Of a stretch of DNA of 37,220 nt, positions 13,153 through 30,981 are shown piece after piece. The position numbers were made by a program, and so were the translations under genes. Origin of the DNA: Nitrospirae bacterium GWC2_57_13 (lineage in GTDB: Bacteria; Nitrospirota; UBA9217). The stretch covers positions 5,624-42,843 of the forward strand of contig MHDZ01000100.1 of the NCBI GenBank assembly GCA_001805055.1. Direction: 5' to 3'. The first letter of the stretch is position 1. Every line of letters begins with the position of its first letter. The notes below the pieces were generated by a model. That model was not told the DNA's origin. It saw nothing but the letters and a program-made list of their open reading frames with translations, and did no database searches.

Positions 13153-13277
13153 GGCGCAGCTTTGGATGCCCGGACCCGGAAGACCTCATGGGTTCGGGAC
13201 ATGATGCTGATCAGTGATTCCCAAGCCTCACCCCCCCCCGTGAGAGCCCTCATCGCCTGCCGAAAAATTGCCTCGGT

Positions 13278-13312
13278 GAGCGAAATCCCGCAACTCAGAG
13301 CGATTACGCGCA
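13278..13312 (+). promoter_or_regulatory. Putative enhancer: two 15-bp direct repeats upstream of the first cytochrome promoter
   Basis: GAGCGAAATCCCGCA (13278-13292) and GAGCGATTACGCGCA (13298-13312) are separated by 5 bp (20-bp period). Each contains the dyad GCG-N6-CGC. The pair ends 54 bp before the GG of the sigma-54 promoter. The same pair, period and distance recur at 15849-15883 before the second cytochrome, so this is very likely the binding site of a sigma-54 activator. Confidence 0.75.
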
Positions 13313-13366
13313 GCATATCCCATATTCAATAAATCTAACCTATGAAAATATAAACGGATTGCCCCC

Positions 13367-13380
13367 GGCACGCTTCTTGC
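13367..13380 (+). promoter_or_regulatory. Sigma-54 (-24/-12) promoter, first cytochrome
   Basis: GGCACGCTTCTTGC matches the sigma-54 core TGGCAC-N5-TTGC with the required GG-N10-GC spacing. Only the T before GG is changed (to C). Transcription should start near 13392. Confidence 0.8.
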
Positions 13381-13391
13381 TTAATATTGTA

Positions 13392-13523
13392 GCTGCACAA
13401 GTTATAACATCATAATATTGCTCTCAGGGCCTGACGCTTGCGACGGCGGCAGGTCACTGTGAAGGTCTAGAAGCCTTCTTGGCTGTCATCATCAGATGAC
13501 GCACGGGAAGGCTTTTTTATTTT
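13392..13523 (+). ncRNA. Leader RNA 1: conserved hairpin plus antiterminator/terminator
   Basis: This predicted leader of about 130 nt aligns without gaps over 77 nt with leader RNA 2. A stem CCTGACGC/GCGGCAGG (one A-G mismatch) holds the loop TTGCGACG (13438-13445). Twenty-three nt from the loop start, GAAGG (13461-13465) can pair with CCTTC (13474-13478). That CCTTC is also part of the 5' arm of the terminator at 13471. The pairings exclude each other, as in a transcription-attenuation switch. The first cytochrome starts 248 bp past the terminator. It could instead be a separate sigma-54 small RNA. I do not recognise a known riboswitch class. Confidence 0.6.
13471..13523 (+). terminator. 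Intrinsic terminator/attenuator in leader 1
   Basis: AAGCCTTC/GAAGGCTT (13471-13478 with 13507-13514) and an inner GTCATC/GATGAC stem are followed by TTTTTTATTTT. It lies between the sigma-54 promoter and the cytochrome gene, and its 5' arm overlaps the alternative GAAGG/CCTTC hairpin. Confidence 0.8.
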
Positions 13524-13770: not shown

Positions 13771-15768
13771 ATGAGAAAAGTATTGTTTGTTGCAATGGCA
13801 TTCGCTTTCCTCGCAGTCAGCGCCCATGCCGGAGACAGATCGATCATTATGTCTGTCAATCCGGAACCAGCGCTTCTCGGCAGCACCGTCCGCTTTATAT
13901 GCACCGGTACCGGTGACTGGGAACACGACAGAATTACCAGCGGGAAAATGACGCTCTGGAATGCATCCAGCGTCAGGCTCCTCAGCGGCGTTTCGATGAA
14001 GGTCACCGAACTCACGGCGACCTATGATTACACGATCAAGAGTACGGAAAGCGTAGGCACGTGGAGGTTCGAGTGTACAATCGGTGACGGCGATCATACC
14101 GCTGTCAGGCAGGATACGTTTCTCGTTGCCGCGGCCGGCGGCGGGGGCGGATCCGGAGGGACAAGCCCGATCACGGCCCACCAGTCTATTACCTCATACA
14201 ACGGCCCCGCTACCTGTATTGCCTGCCACAAGACCGCCGGTACGGACATGCTGAACAGCCTGCACATGAAATGGTCCGGTCCGACTCCTGAGGTGACGAA
14301 CGGCGGCGGCGCAACGCTGGGGAAGGCGATCAAAGGCATCAACACCTTCTGTACCTATGCAATGTCTTCAAAGGGCACCTGCTTCGCTTGCCACGTCCGC
14401 TCTGATGGAAACGCGCCCCATGCACCGACGGTGAACGACGTTGACTGTCTCATGTGCCATAATGACACCTACCAGCGGAAGTTTGTCGTGGACCCGAACA
14501 GCAGCGTTACGGTAACAAATGTGCTTGGGATAGTCAAAACATACTCCTTCGGCCTTGTGGAGCCGGACGGCGACTATGTGACCGAACCCGACTTCACCGT
14601 GATGCCTCCGGACGTGACGATGGTTGATATAGCCAAGAACGTCCACAAGCCTACGAGAAAATCCTGCCTGCGCTGCCACGCGAAGGCCGGCGGCTCCGAT
14701 TGGGCGAAGCGCGGTGACATGGGGCTGAATTCCGTGACCCCGACCCGCGACCAGGACGTCCATATGTCTCCCGACGGCGCGAACCTGTCCTGCACGAAAT
14801 GTCACACAACGGCAAGCCACAAGATCGGCGGCCGCGGCATTGACCTCCGCCAGACCGAAGCCGCTGATCCGACCTGTCAAAGCTGCCATACCGCAGCTCC
14901 TCATCGATCGAGCGCTACGATGAACCGGCACGCTGCCGGCCAGGTCGCCTGCCAGGTCTGCCATATCCTCACCTTCGGGAAAGGCGGCGCAACCGAGATG
15001 TCCCGTGACTGGAAAAGCCCCGTCTGGAGCCCGCCCTTCTGCAATGCACAGGGCGGTTTCGTGGGTCATGAGGTCAAAACTTCCAACGTGAAGCCCGAAT
15101 ATGTCTGGTTCGACGGGACTTCGTATGTCTACAACATCGGCGAGGTCATCATGCCCAATGCGCAGGGCATCTACAACATGGCCAAGGCGAACGGCAGGGC
15201 CTTTGACGGCACGTCAAAGATCGTACCCATCAAGCGCCACTTCACCGACACGGCCCTGCATGAGTCCGGCAAGATCGTTCCCCCCATGATCATGTGGATG
15301 TTCATGACCGGCGATTTCGACCTTGCTGTTCAGAAGGGCATGGAAGAGCAGAACATGACCGGCAGATACACGATGGTCACCGCAGACGCCGAAATGCTGA
15401 TAACTCATGGCGTTGATCCGAAGACAAAGGCCCCGACCTGTACGGCATGTCACAATACGTATGGAACGACTCCGGACGGCACCAAGATGATACCTTTCGA
15501 TAAATTAGGGTACCACGTCTGGCCGGCAAAGGTCAGGGCCTGCACGCTCTGTCACTCATCCGAGACCATGTCATGGGAATCCATGCATGAGAAGCATCGC
15601 AGCAAGATCAGAAGCTGCAAAAACTGCCATACCACGGAGCCGATAGGCCTGGTGAAGCCCCAGAGCGACTTGTGCAACGACTGCCACAGCATGAAATCAT
15701 GGAGCGGCGCCAGCACGCACAAAAAACACGTGGAAAAGTATGATTGCACGAAGTGCCATAAGTTCTAA
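13771..15768 (+). CDS. Dodecaheme c-type cytochrome with extra N-terminal beta-domain
   Basis: The 665-residue protein has a signal peptide (about 1-20, AHAG) and twelve CXXCH heme motifs, the first at Cys149 and the last in the final residues (CTKCHKF). It is thus an exported multiheme electron carrier of the periplasm or cell surface. Residues about 21-120 form an Ig-like beta domain, joined to the heme part by a Gly-rich linker (GGGGGSGG near 123-130). The second cytochrome (16511) lacks this domain but aligns over the remaining ~530 residues with nearly constant heme spacing. AAAAGGAG lies 6 nt before the ATG. Upstream are an enhancer, a sigma-54 promoter and an attenuator-type leader. 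Its redox partner is not visible; extracellular electron transfer or respiratory reduction is plausible but inferred. Confidence 0.92.
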   Translation: MRKVLFVAMAFAFLAVSAHAGDRSIIMSVNPEPALLGSTVRFICTGTGDWEHDRITSGKMTLWNASSVRLLSGVSMKVTELTATYDYTIKSTESVGTWRFECTIGDGDHTAVRQDTFLVAAAGGGGGSGGTSPITAHQSITSYNGPATCIACHKTAGTDMLNSLHMKWSGPTPEVTNGGGATLGKAIKGINTFCTYAMSSKGTCFACHVRSDGNAPHAPTVNDVDCLMCHNDTYQRKFVVDPNSSVTVTNVLGIVKTYSFGLVEPDGDYVTEPDFTVMPPDVTMVDIAKNVHKPTRKSCLRCHAKAGGSDWAKRGDMGLNSVTPTRDQDVHMSPDGANLSCTKCHTTASHKIGGRGIDLRQTEAADPTCQSCHTAAPHRSSATMNRHAAGQVACQVCHILTFGKGGATEMSRDWKSPVWSPPFCNAQGGFVGHEVKTSNVKPEYVWFDGTSYVYNIGEVIMPNAQGIYNMAKANGRAFDGTSKIVPIKRHFTDTALHESGKIVPPMIMWMFMTGDFDLAVQKGMEEQNMTGRYTMVTADAEMLITHGVDPKTKAPTCTACHNTYGTTPDGTKMIPFDKLGYHVWPAKVRACTLCHSSETMSWESMHEKHRSKIRSCKNCHTTEPIGLVKPQSDLCNDCHSMKSWSGASTHKKHVEKYDCTKCHKF

Positions 15769-15836: not shown

Positions 15837-15848
15837 GGGAATATTGCT

Positions 15849-15883
15849 GAGCGAATCTACGCACGGCAGAGCGTTCTCGCGCA
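15849..15883 (+). promoter_or_regulatory. Putative enhancer: two 15-bp direct repeats upstream of the second cytochrome promoter
   Basis: GAGCGAATCTACGCA (15849-15863) and GAGCGTTCTCGCGCA (15869-15883) have the same 15-bp unit, 5-bp gap, GCG-N6-CGC dyad and 54-bp distance to the -24 GG as the pair at 13278-13312. The flanking DNA has diverged, so the conservation is probably functional. Confidence 0.75.
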
Positions 15884-15937
15884 CTGTTTCTTATATGCTA
15901 AATCATGAAACTCAGACAATCCAATGGCTTGGCTCCG

Positions 15938-15951
15938 GGCATATTTTTTGC
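15938..15951 (+). promoter_or_regulatory. Sigma-54 (-24/-12) promoter, second cytochrome
   Basis: GGCATATTTTTTGC has GG-N10-GC spacing and the TTGC half. Transcription should start near 15963. Confidence 0.75.
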
Positions 15952-15962
15952 TTCTATAGTAG

Positions 15963-16088
15963 ATGTTTTTTCGAAAAGTGAATAGTACTTTAGCCTCTAC
16001 TGCTCGCGACGGCAGTAAAGCAAAACGAAGGTCATGAAGCCTTCCTGAGAGTCATCTTTCGATGGCTGTCGGGAAGGCTTTTTTATTG
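15963..16088 (+). ncRNA. Leader RNA 2: conserved hairpin plus antiterminator/terminator
   Basis: This predicted leader of about 125 nt carries stem TACTGC/GCAGTA around loop TCGCGACG (16004-16011). The stem bases differ from leader 1 while pairing and 8-nt loop are kept, which is covariation. GAAGG (16027-16031) can pair with CCTTC (16040-16044), competing with the terminator arm at 16037. Distances loop-GAAGG (23 nt) and loop-terminator (33 nt) equal those of leader 1. The cytochrome start lies 423 bp beyond. Function (attenuator, riboswitch or stand-alone sRNA) is not determined. Confidence 0.6.
16037..16088 (+). terminator. Intrinsic terminator/attenuator in leader 2
   Basis: A 9-bp stem AAGCCTTCC/GGAAGGCTT (16037-16045 with 16072-16080) with inner GTCATC/GATGGC pairing is followed by TTTTATT. 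The geometry is that of the leader 1 terminator. Confidence 0.8.
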
Positions 16089-16510: not shown

Positions 16511-18181
16511 ATGAAAAGGCTTCTCATCGCTCTATCTGCGATCACGGTTCTGGCCGGCTTTGCATCTGTCGGAAGCGCGGCTTCTACACATCTGACGATC
16601 ACGTCCTACAATGGCCCGCAGACATGCATCGCCTGCCACAAGACAGCGGGCCAGGAAATGCTGAACAGCCTGCACATGAAATGGGCCGGCCCCACGCCGA
16701 ACGTGACGAACGGCGGAGGCGCGGAGCTCGGCAAGGCCGTCAAAGGCATCAACACCTTCTGCACCTATGCCATGTCCTCAGCCGGCGCCTGCTTCAATTG
16801 CCATGTGCGTTCTGATGGAAATGCGCCCCATGCGCCGTCGGAAGCAGACGTTGACTGTATGATGTGCCATAACGATACGTACCAGCGGAAATTCGTTGTG
16901 GACCCGAACAGCGGCCTGACCGTAAAGAACGTTCTTGGCCAGACGAAAACATACTATTTTGGCCTCCAAGACGCGCTCGGAAATTATTCGATCGAACTGG
17001 ATTATGCCTTAATGCCTGCAGGAACAACGCCGGTCAGCCTCGCCCGTACCGTGCACCGGCCAACGAAAAAATCCTGCCTCCGCTGCCACGCGAAAGCAGG
17101 CGGCGGTGACTGGACCAAACGCGGGGACATGGGCGTGAACAGCGCGGCCCCGACCGTTGACCAGGATTTCCATATGTCCGCGTCAGGCGCGAACCTCTCG
17201 TGCACGTCCTGTCATAAAACCACGGCCCACAAGATCGGCGGACGCGGCATCGACCTTCGCCAGACCGAAGCTCCCAACCCGACCTGCACCCAGTGCCATC
17301 CCTCGTCTCCGCATGCTAATACCAAGTTGAACCGGCATGCCAGCCGCGGCAGGCTCACTTGCCAGGTCTGTCATATCCGCACCTTCGGCAAGGGCGGCGC
17401 AACCGAGATGTCGCGCGACTGGAGAATCCCCGTCTGGAACGCCGGGTTCTGCAATGGCCAGGGCGGATTTGTAGGAGAAGAAGTAAAGGTTGCCAATGTG
17501 AAACCCGACTACGTCTGGTTCGACGGGACCTCGTATGTATACAACGTGGGCGAAACGATCACGCCCAATGCCTCGGGAGTTTATACTATGGCAAAGGCGA
17601 ACGGCACGCCCTTCGGCCTCAATTCAAAGATCGTCCCGATCAAGCGCCACACTTCCATTATGCCCTTGCACACAAGCGGCAAGATAGTTCCCCCAATGAT
17701 CAACTGGATGTTCATGACCGGCTATTTCGATGACGCTGTCCAGAAAGGCATGGCCGAGCAGGGCCTGACCGGCGGCTACTCGCTCGTACCTGTTGATGCA
17801 GAGATGCTGATCACCCACGGCGTGGATCCGAAGTCAAAGGCGCCGGCCTGTTCAAACTGCCACAATCTCAGCGGAACGACTGCCGACGGCGGTTCGTACA
17901 TGGTGCCCTTCGACAAACTGGGCTATCATGTCTGGCCGGCAAAGGTCAAGGCCTGCACGCTCTGCCACTCTGCCTATAACTTGTCATGGGAAGCAATGCA
18001 TGATAAACATCGTGACAAGATCAGGAACTGCACCAACTGCCATACCAAAGAGCCGACAGGCCTGGTGAAGCCCCAGAGCGACCTGTGCAACGACTGCCAC
18101 AGCCTGAAAACCTGGAGCGGAGCCAGCACCCACAAGAAACACGTTGAGAGGTATGATTGCACAAAATGCCATAAGTTCTAA
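16511..18181 (+). CDS. Dodecaheme c-type cytochrome (paralog of the gene at 13771)
   Basis: The 556-residue protein has a signal peptide (about 1-23, GSAAS) and twelve CXXCH motifs, the first at Cys39 and the last at the C-terminus. Heme spacing matches the paralog almost residue for residue over ~530 residues, and long blocks are identical (for example WSGASTHKKHVE). It lacks the paralog's N-terminal beta-domain and Gly linker. AAGGAGG lies 4 nt before the ATG. Like the paralog it should be translocated, matured by the cytochrome c system and act as a multiheme electron conduit outside the inner membrane. It has its own enhancer, sigma-54 promoter and leader, and shares the paralog's 3' UTR. 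This indicates a whole-cassette duplication. Confidence 0.92.
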   Translation: MKRLLIALSAITVLAGFASVGSAASTHLTITSYNGPQTCIACHKTAGQEMLNSLHMKWAGPTPNVTNGGGAELGKAVKGINTFCTYAMSSAGACFNCHVRSDGNAPHAPSEADVDCMMCHNDTYQRKFVVDPNSGLTVKNVLGQTKTYYFGLQDALGNYSIELDYALMPAGTTPVSLARTVHRPTKKSCLRCHAKAGGGDWTKRGDMGVNSAAPTVDQDFHMSASGANLSCTSCHKTTAHKIGGRGIDLRQTEAPNPTCTQCHPSSPHANTKLNRHASRGRLTCQVCHIRTFGKGGATEMSRDWRIPVWNAGFCNGQGGFVGEEVKVANVKPDYVWFDGTSYVYNVGETITPNASGVYTMAKANGTPFGLNSKIVPIKRHTSIMPLHTSGKIVPPMINWMFMTGYFDDAVQKGMAEQGLTGGYSLVPVDAEMLITHGVDPKSKAPACSNCHNLSGTTADGGSYMVPFDKLGYHVWPAKVKACTLCHSAYNLSWEAMHDKHRDKIRNCTNCHTKEPTGLVKPQSDLCNDCHSLKTWSGASTHKKHVERYDCTKCHKF

Positions 18182-28356: not shown

Positions 28357-30981
28357 TCATGGGGTGCCGAGGATTTCCCCGATCTTCCGGGAAAAAGCAT
28401 GCAGACTGAACGGCTTTTGAATGAAGTGTACGCCTTCTTCCGGGATGCCGAGGTTGAGAATTACATTCGACGTGTATCCGGACATGAAGAGCACCTTGAT
28501 TTCAGGCCGTATAATCTTGATCCGGTCTCTCAGCTCTTTGCCGTTCATTTCCGGCATCACGACATCCGTGAGAAGGAGATCGATAGGACTGTGGTTCTTT
28601 TCGCAGAGAGATATGGCGTCGGCAGAATTATTCGCGATCAGGACTGTGTAGCCGATTGCTTTCAGCATCTCCGCTGTCATCCCGCTCACCAAGGCATCAT
28701 CTTCCACCAGCAAGACGGTCCCGGTGCCGAAAACGAGCGGCGCCTCATCGGGTCTTGCAGGCACTTCTTCCGGGTCAACGCCTTTTGGGATGTACACTTT
28801 GAACGTTGTCCCGGCGCCCGGCTCACTGGAGACATGAATGAATCCGCCATTCTGTTCGATGATGCCGTGGACCGTGGCAAGCCCGAGCCCCGTTCCTTCA
28901 CCAACGCCCTTCGTCGTGAAAAAGGGCTCAAATATATACGTAAGGGTCTCCGTATCCATGCCGATCCCGTTATCGCTCACTTCCAGGAGAACATAGTCTC
29001 CCGGCAGAAGCCCGCCCTGTTCACGGCAGCATGCCTCATCAAGTTCGATGTTGGCCGTTTTGATTATCAGGTTGCCCCCGGAGGGCAAGGCATCCCGGGC
29101 ATTGACCGCCAGATTAACAAGGACCTGCTCGATCTGTGCCGTATCGAACATGATGTTCCAAAGGGCGGCCCCTGGATAAAACTGAAGCTCAACGTCCTCG
29201 CCGATAAGTGGAGCAAGCGTTTCTTTTGCACTTGAGATACTATCATTCAGGTTTATCGACCGGGGCGCAATAAGCTGCTTTCGGGAAAAAGCAAGGAGCT
29301 GGGCGGTTACGTCCCGGGAATGAGAGGCTGCTTTTTCAATTGCCTGGAGATCCCGAAGGAGCGGATCATGAGCGGGAAGGCGGGCTGCGATCAATTCCGT
29401 GTAGCCAAGAATGACGCAGAGCATATTGTTAAAATCGTGGGCCACTCCCCCTGCCAGGCGGCCGATGGATTCCATCTTCTGTGACTGCACTAATTGGGAC
29501 TGGAGTTTTTCTTTCTCTTCCTCGGCATGCTTGCGGTCGGTGATGTCCCGCAGGACCGCCAGGACGCGGCCTTCCCCGCCGATTCGCGTGGTTGACAGAA
29601 GCACTTCGACCCAGAACAGTTCACCACTCTTTCTCCTGGATAACCACTCAAATGACTGAGTGCCGCCCTGGAAAGCCTTTTGTATCCATTGCCGTGCTTC
29701 CTCCAATGAGTACGGCGGCTCTCCTGAGCTTATCTTCTGTACCGTCTGATGAAGCAGTTCTTCCCGGGTATAGCCGAACATTTCCTCGACGGTCTTGTTC
29801 GCTTCCACGATGTTGCCGGATTCCGCATCGTGGACGAATATCGCATCTTTTGAGGCATTAAAGATCTCGCGGTAGTTTCTCTCGCTTTCGACGAGCGCCT
29901 TCTCCCGCGCTGCAAGCTGATCGGCCATATGATCGAAGGTGCGGCCCAGACTCCCCAATTCACCGCCGACGACAAGATCTGAAATCCTGACCTGAAGATC
30001 ACCATCGGCAAGATCTCGTGAGGCTTTTTCCAGGAGGGTGACGCGGTCCGCGATCGAACGCTTGCCGATGACGGAGGCGATAAAAAACGCCAGCACGAGG
30101 AACGAAGTGTACAACGTCAGATTGTACCAGAGTGACTTATTGGCGCTCGACAGGACAACATCAACCGGCAGCCCTGCCCGGATATACATGTAGGGAGACT
30201 CCTCGCCGGCAAGACGCAGTTTGCGATAGGTTATGATGCGTTCAACGCCGTCAAGGTCGAGGATGGCAAGCGTATCGACATCAGCACCCTCCTGCATGCG
30301 CTTGAAAAGCCCCAGGTCGAGTTGTTTCCCGACGTATTTTTTGGAGTTCATGGCGCTGCTCATGACCACGCCGTTGTGGTCTAGAAGCATATAGCTCGCG
30401 CCGGGCGGCAGTTTGGAACGCTCCAGCACGGGCTTGAAAGAATCAGGGATGAAGCCGACGCAAATGGTCCCGCTGACCGCACCGCGTTCATTTTTTTGGG
30501 GATAGGCCAGATTGAAGGACGGCCTGCCCGTGGCCCTGCTGACAATGAATTCACCCGATGATAGCTGCCCGCTTGCCAGCGCATTCCTGAAGTACCGTCG
30601 GTCGGATATGATAAAAGGAGGTTTTACGGGAACCGCCGTTGCCCAGACCAGGCCGCTGCGATCGGCCATGAAGATGTTCGAATACTGGGCGTGCAGCGCG
30701 AGGATGTCTTTCAGGACCGGCTGCACCCGTGCGGTATTCTGCTTCCTTACATCAGGCAGTTGCGCCAGGGCGGTGATCAGCTGCCGCGCGGCAATGACCA
30801 GACCCTGCTGTTCCGCTGCGATGCTCTCGGCAAGCTTCTGGGTCTCCCTGCGAGCGTCCCGGATCGCCTCTTCACGCAGGTTCATGCCTGAATTGATGAT
30901 AATGCCCGCAGCGGGCAGGGCCACGATAAGAGTGATGAGAAACAACTGTGCTCGTATTGACAGTGAAAATAATCCGGCCAT
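28357..30981 (-). CDS. Hybrid sensor histidine kinase (dCache-HAMP-PAS-HisKA-HATPase-REC)
   Basis: The 874-residue inner-membrane sensor has a first membrane helix (about 11-30), a periplasmic double-Cache sensor (about 35-285, including SDRRYFRNALASG) and a second helix (about 288-306). HAMP (about 308-362) and PAS (about 366-485, YREIFNASKDAIFV) follow. The dimerisation domain carries phospho-His515 in GGVAHDFNNML. The ATPase domain has the N box (NLAVNARDA, about 624) and the G boxes DNGIGM and GEGTGLGLA. The C-terminal receiver has phospho-Asp806 (LLLTDVVMPEMNG), the acidic pair VEDD and Lys856. All catalytic residues are present. Cache domains of this kind bind small organic ligands. No separate response regulator lies nearby, so it is an orphan hybrid kinase. 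ORF 28216-29235 (+) is its antisense shadow. Confidence 0.95.
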   Translation of the reverse strand: MAGLFSLSIRAQLFLITLIVALPAAGIIINSGMNLREEAIRDARRETQKLAESIAAEQQGLVIAARQLITALAQLPDVRKQNTARVQPVLKDILALHAQYSNIFMADRSGLVWATAVPVKPPFIISDRRYFRNALASGQLSSGEFIVSRATGRPSFNLAYPQKNERGAVSGTICVGFIPDSFKPVLERSKLPPGASYMLLDHNGVVMSSAMNSKKYVGKQLDLGLFKRMQEGADVDTLAILDLDGVERIITYRKLRLAGEESPYMYIRAGLPVDVVLSSANKSLWYNLTLYTSFLVLAFFIASVIGKRSIADRVTLLEKASRDLADGDLQVRISDLVVGGELGSLGRTFDHMADQLAAREKALVESERNYREIFNASKDAIFVHDAESGNIVEANKTVEEMFGYTREELLHQTVQKISSGEPPYSLEEARQWIQKAFQGGTQSFEWLSRRKSGELFWVEVLLSTTRIGGEGRVLAVLRDITDRKHAEEEKEKLQSQLVQSQKMESIGRLAGGVAHDFNNMLCVILGYTELIAARLPAHDPLLRDLQAIEKAASHSRDVTAQLLAFSRKQLIAPRSINLNDSISSAKETLAPLIGEDVELQFYPGAALWNIMFDTAQIEQVLVNLAVNARDALPSGGNLIIKTANIELDEACCREQGGLLPGDYVLLEVSDNGIGMDTETLTYIFEPFFTTKGVGEGTGLGLATVHGIIEQNGGFIHVSSEPGAGTTFKVYIPKGVDPEEVPARPDEAPLVFGTGTVLLVEDDALVSGMTAEMLKAIGYTVLIANNSADAISLCEKNHSPIDLLLTDVVMPEMNGKELRDRIKIIRPEIKVLFMSGYTSNVILNLGIPEEGVHFIQKPFSLHAFSRKIGEILGTP

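Follow-up and report, generated by a model that had tools for sequence, protein, structure and literature searches.

Putative sigma-54 promoters, paired activator sites and ANTAR-like leader RNAs upstream of multiheme cytochrome genes in an uncultured Nitrospirota bacterium

ANTAR proteins bind RNAs with two hexaloop hairpins, the second of which is mutually exclusive with a terminator (PMC3369931, PMC3369936). In the targets studied, position 1 of the loop is A and position 4 is G (PMC3369931, PMC7496416). In Klebsiella oxytoca, the nasFEDCBA operon for nitrate assimilation is controlled by the Ntr system (NtrC/sigma-54) as well as by antitermination through the ANTAR protein NasR (PMC5424462, PMC3369936). 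The nasT gene of Paracoccus is itself controlled by NtrC (PMC5424462), and in Bradyrhizobium the ANTAR protein NasT controls nap and nos (PMC6759348). The control of large multiheme cytochromes in uncultured metal- and sulfur-cycling bacteria is mostly unknown. A literature search that included few subscription papers returned no paper on multiheme cytochromes under ANTAR control, nor any on Nitrospirota with ANTAR leaders.

Here we describe multiheme cytochrome genes that are very probably each subject to two serial controls, a sigma-54 activator step and an ANTAR-type attenuator; the ANTAR protein may also gate the gene of a candidate activator. The arrangement resembles Klebsiella nas, where Ntr-system control and an ANTAR-read dual-hairpin leader act on one operon. 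It differs in that NasR is a NIT-ANTAR protein, whereas the protein here is a receiver-ANTAR regulator, and also in its multiheme cytochrome targets, in its loop letters and in the leader borne by the activator gene itself. The EutV/eut system of Enterococcus faecalis likewise has a receiver-ANTAR protein, two hexaloop hairpins of which the second excludes the terminator, and several leaders per regulon. The eut loops, however, have A at position 1 and G at position 4, whereas the loops here have a pyrimidine at position 1, G at position 4, A at position 5 and mostly a U.G closing pair; function and phylum differ as well. With NasT of Paracoccus denitrificans and Bradyrhizobium diazoefficiens (nas, nap, nos), the common point is that ANTAR control in Bradyrhizobium reaches respiratory genes (nap, nos), but the NasT systems concern nitrogen oxyanion respiration, employ NasS as a partner and include no OTR-like multiheme cytochromes.

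The window is a stretch of 37,220 nucleotides on contig C100 of an uncultured Nitrospirota draft genome (G000; 3.32 Mb, 105 contigs). It contains two tandem paralogs on the plus strand, both 12-heme and OTR-like: cytochrome A (13771..15768, 665 aa) and cytochrome B (16511..18181, 556 aa, 72% identical to A). Similarity to the TIGR04315 model extends over ~400 residues, and similarity to PDB entry 1sp3, the Shewanella OTR, over ~280 residues. The scores against TIGR04315 are 239, 218 and 183 bits, below the cut-off of 375. Octaheme tetrathionate reductase (TIGR04315; Shewanella OTR) has 8 hemes, whereas the proteins described here have 10-12 CXXCH hemes and score 182-239 bits.

Upstream of each cytochrome gene is a predicted sigma-54 promoter preceded by two putative activator sites, an assignment that is strongly supported by the comparisons below. 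Promoter A (CGGCACGCTTCTTGCTT, 13366..13382, plus strand) has its -24 GG at 13367, and promoter B (GGGCATATTTTTTGCTT, 15937..15953, plus strand) at 15938, which confirms the GG-N10-GC elements named in a preliminary description of this DNA. Scored for GG-N10-GC and for TTGC at -12, they reach 13/14 and 12/14, respectively, and the promoters of relatives score similarly. The distal site A1 (TGAGCGAAATCCCGCA, 13277..13292, plus strand) and the proximal site A2 (AGAGCGATTACGCGCA, 13297..13312, plus strand) have a 20 bp period and end 74 and 54 bp before the -24 GG. At promoter B, the distal site B1 (TGAGCGAATCTACGCA, 15848..15863, plus strand) is followed by the proximal site B2 (AGAGCGTTCTCGCGCA, 15868..15883, plus strand), which again ends 54 bp before the -24 GG. 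The preliminary description had presented these sites as pairs of 15-mers with a 20-bp period at this fixed distance. The pairs lie at 13278-13312 and 15849-15883, and period and distance both hold. The complete site, TGMGC-N6-RCKCA, begins one base earlier (13277) and forms a dyad of 16 bp.

The pair GAGCGN6CGCA-N5-GAGCGN6CGCA occurs with no mismatch at only two places in 3.32 Mb, both in the window. A genome search allowing up to three mismatches revealed a third pair, with one mismatch, on the minus strand of contig C27 (C27:11428-11462); its second copy ends in CTCA, not CGCA. All remaining matches have three mismatches and are noise, and a reversed-pattern control gives one. A GG-N10-GC element begins exactly 54 bp after the C27 pair, and a 10-heme cytochrome paralog lies downstream. 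The C27 site is an independent check, because the preliminary description was made without knowledge of it; the scan for the 15-mer pair that it had proposed yields this one extra copy, again before a multiheme cytochrome and again at 54 bp. The single 15-mer occurs five times in the window, four times inside the two pairs, and is therefore not a dispersed repeat, which the genome-wide pair search likewise rules out. The preliminary description did less well with the spacer between repeat and promoter, which it had called diverged. The spacers of the three promoters are identical at 24-27 of 54 positions, compared with ~14 for shuffled sequences (P 0.0002-0.002), and therefore retain residual homology. 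The three promoters stand at paralogous loci, and their likeness is partly due to descent. IHF sites in the spacer are not claimed; there are two exact matches, and the rest are weak.

The family comparison set consists of 14 genomes, and the leader-bearing genomes among them are related. Cytochrome homologs are present in four further genomes of the family, with the same elements in their upstream regions; these homologous promoters were reached via the cytochrome genes. A sigma-54-like promoter lies upstream of thirteen leaders, in five genomes. At 12 of these 13 promoters, a dyad with a score of 8/10 or more ends 53-56 bp before the -24 element; in 2000 shuffles this was seen at no more than one of the 13. 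The dyad motif and the sigma-54 picks were defined in part on the same data. The thirteenth promoter, behind the ANTAR gene of G000, has a dyad pair at 62 bp. At most of the 13 promoters a second dyad lies 19-22 bp farther upstream, and the tandem dyads are placed on one helix face at a fixed upstream distance. Two promoters (G001 C164 and G002 C142) have AG instead of GG at -24. The consensus of 25 sites is TGMGCR-N4-YRCKCA, with N4 mostly A/T. Across the five genomes, dyads occur in both orientations, before unrelated genes and with diverged spacers; the genes behind them include OTR-like and c7-type cytochromes, an ANTAR-adjacent operon and a GGDEF-regulator locus in G013. Searching the relatives with the exact letters of the A and B sites, mismatches allowed, returned noise only, and over the 14 genomes the combined dyad and sigma-54 pattern gave matches beyond the known promoters at the level of a reversed control.

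Between promoter and gene at the A, B and C27 loci are two short hairpins and then an intrinsic terminator, with the 3' arm of the second hairpin doubling as the 5' arm of the terminator. In leader A, the first hairpin P1 (13428..13453) has the hexaloop UGCGAC with a U.G closing pair, and the second hairpin P2 (13461..13478), a putative antiterminator, has the hexaloop CUAGAA and overlaps the 5' arm of the terminator (13469..13518). Leader B, on the plus strand like leader A, has P1 at 15998..16017 (hexaloop CGCGAC), the putative antiterminator P2 at 16027..16044 (hexaloop CAUGAA) and a terminator at 16034..16084 with the same overlap. Energy folding of the two window leaders gives the 6-nt loops and the terminator, with z scores of -6.3 and -5.4. 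The preliminary description, whose sigma-54 promoters and paired activator sites are strongly supported by five genomes and by the presence of rpoN, had missed this ANTAR-type leader downstream. No Rfam family matches the leaders at its gathering threshold, only chance matches being found, which rules out a known riboswitch or RNA family.

A covariance model built from eight leaders was run on the 14 genomes, and all matches at E<1e-5 are in the five genomes with the cytochromes. Over 22 leaders, 97.3% of the cells in the hairpins are paired, compared with 89.5% in shuffled alignments. Double-sided changes affect five pairs and 21 cells, compared with 2.6 and 4.2 in shuffles. The first hairpin accounts for most of this covariation. 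The second hardly varies, as would be expected if the same letters had to serve the terminator too. Of the two halves of the control region, the leader is the better conserved.

All 22 leaders have G at position 4 of both loops, and position 1 is C or U in both, never A. Position 5 is nearly always A, and the closing pair is mostly U.G. The linker between the hairpins is 4-15 nt long in 21 of the 22 leaders, within the ANTAR-target range of 2-25 nt. The leaders thus agree with canonical ANTAR targets in their tandem hexaloop hairpins, G at position 4, terminator overlap, linker and the ANTAR protein in the genome, and depart from them in lacking A at position 1. Because a pyrimidine replaces this A, we do not file the leader as a canonical ANTAR-target RNA, and propose by analogy that it works like an ANTAR attenuator. 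The linker of the C27 leader (L092:1501-1628) is 40 nt long and contains a strong, near-perfect AT-rich internal hairpin, which could hold the two loops close.

The source genome encodes one receiver-ANTAR response regulator (C43, domain 48211-48369, PF03861 E 7.7e-22). A receiver-ANTAR regulator is present in each of the five leader genomes, with a second, sub-cut-off match in G011, and an ANTAR domain was not found in the other nine of the 14 genomes. Leader and ANTAR protein hence co-occur in 5/5 versus 0/9 genomes (P = 1/2002, or 0.0005). In the phylum-wide set of 396 genomes, of which 151 encode ANTAR, leaders were found in nine, each of them with an ANTAR gene. Because the genomes are related, neither count represents independent events. 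In G000, G001 and G002 there is a leader immediately behind the ANTAR gene, and G002 has another one before it; the stop codon of the ANTAR gene and the first dyad overlap in G000 and G001. The ANTAR-less genome G004 has a decayed leader (L077:1501-1602, C39) in which pairs of the first hairpin are broken and the second loop is changed, with the sigma-54-like element retained; it stands before the same small gene as some intact leaders. This gene, found just after leaders in G000, G001, G002 and G013 and after the decayed leader of G004 (L088:1781-2002 on G000 C43, L054, L058, L093 and L077), encodes a small protein in which four cysteines are conserved (CKLF...LC...CEGC, no Pfam family) and which may serve the system as a redox or metal-binding partner.

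The genome of G000 contains rpoN (C77) and genes for ~23 proteins with a full-strength sigma-54 activator domain, the machinery that the preliminary description presupposed. As far as it could be tested, none of the findings that this description had named as speaking against it, such as a genome lacking rpoN, was made. It had left the activator unidentified, which no longer wholly applies: one gene of the RR-AAA-Fis type (C18:86579-88045) is tied to the system through a leader of its own (C18:88231-88334) and through co-occurrence. Its product is the best candidate for the dyad-binding protein. The G001 ortholog, 68% identical to that of G000, is also behind a leader (C153). Orthologs of the C18 activator (67-68%) are present only in G001 and G002, the latter without a leader; the other 11 family genomes have only paralogs of at most 45% identity, or none at threshold. 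In the activators of G000, G001 and G002 the Fis-type recognition segment is identical, and the GAFTGA loop reads GAFTDA. The two activator genes with a leader stand behind sigma-70-like promoters (TTGACA-18-TAAAAT/TATAAT); dyads were found at neither. A leader in G013 (C342, L096:1501-1578) is cut by the contig end and, like the activator-gene leaders, has no dyads upstream.

From the parts, their conservation, their covariation and their co-occurrence, we infer binding, phosphorylation, antitermination and the choice of activator in the following scheme. The RR/Fis-type activator would bind the two TGMGC-N6-RCKCA dyads, whose centres are ~two helical turns apart, ~62 and ~82 bp before the -24 GG, and would open RNA polymerase-sigma54 at the -24/-12 promoter. 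The transcript would fold into the two small hexaloop hairpins. If the RR-ANTAR protein, presumably phosphorylated, held both hairpins, transcription would reach the gene; otherwise P2 would yield to the overlapping intrinsic terminator and transcription would stop before the gene. The presence of the same leader before the activator gene in two genomes suggests a coherent feed-forward loop, in which the activator and its targets would both depend on the ANTAR protein: this protein would permit production of the activator, and both proteins would then be needed for the cytochromes.

Parts of this scheme have rivals. It is very improbable that the repeats and their spacing are functionless relics of a duplication of the cytochrome locus. 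Tandem paralogs with spacers 44-50% identical are what a duplication would leave, but the architecture recurs at promoters of other genes in five genomes (the c7-type cytochromes, the ANTAR-adjacent operon and the GGDEF locus), where the spacers have diverged, sites are inverted and the coding genes are unrelated. The leader might also be read by another RNA-binding protein or by a ligand, the sigma-54 promoters and sites being real and the ANTAR co-occurrence reflecting shared ancestry. The pyrimidine at loop position 1, which is A in the studied targets (PMC3369931, PMC7496416), and the restriction of the family comparison to 14 genomes, with related leader genomes, would fit such a reader. 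We consider it unlikely, given that the dual hexaloop with overlapping terminator is the described anatomy of an ANTAR target, that G at position 4 and the linker length are so constant, and that leaders adjoin the ANTAR gene, match nothing in Rfam and have decayed where ANTAR is absent.

Whether the C18 activator is the protein that binds the dyads is much less settled, and there is close to an even chance that another sigma-54 activator does so. About 22 others in the genome could bind, the C18 gene has no dyads of its own, and no ortholog was found in G011 and G013 (83-85% complete), both of which keep dyads. Activators beside the cytochrome homologs of Desulfobacterota are not C18 orthologs either. 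On the other side, the genome-wide leader search finds C18 as the single activator gene behind a leader, and only ANTAR genomes have close orthologs of it. The assembly of G013 may lack the activator gene, which leader L096 at the contig end could precede.

Serial control by a sigma-54 activator and an ANTAR-type attenuator would amount to a concrete circuit made up of one ANTAR protein and one candidate activator, with a short list of regulon members in each genome and defined nucleotides. It would carry ANTAR control, known mainly from nitrogen metabolism, over to a phylum and gene class with no such report in the literature searched, and loops that break the rule of A at position 1 make the ANTAR-RNA recognition rule testable. 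More tentatively, and with somewhat more chance of being wrong than right, a receiver-ANTAR protein of altered loop specificity (Y1-N-N-G4-A) may be the master switch of an electron-transfer regulon, in feed-forward with the sigma-54 activator. If true, this would represent a new RNA-recognition code as well as ANTAR control of multiheme cytochromes.

Outside Nitrospirota, 29 of 52 cytochrome loci, from Desulfobacterota homologs, have a strong sigma-54 element within 500 bp. The -24/-12 elements are often ~100 or 220 bp upstream, and some loci have a sigma-54 activator gene nearby (L126-L196). These adjacent activators were considered as support for the identity of the C18 activator and set aside, the C18 activator not being their best match in G000. 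No dyads and no confident leader were found at the 52 loci, and sigma-54 control of this cytochrome family may therefore be older than both. The window also encodes a hybrid histidine kinase with dCache, PAS and receiver domains (28357-30981, minus strand). Finally, in leaders of family f6 (L121, L122 and L123) each of the two hairpin loops is one base longer, both having changed in parallel; these leaders are located behind sigma-70-like promoters and before an outer-membrane gene that is FadL-like by resemblance.
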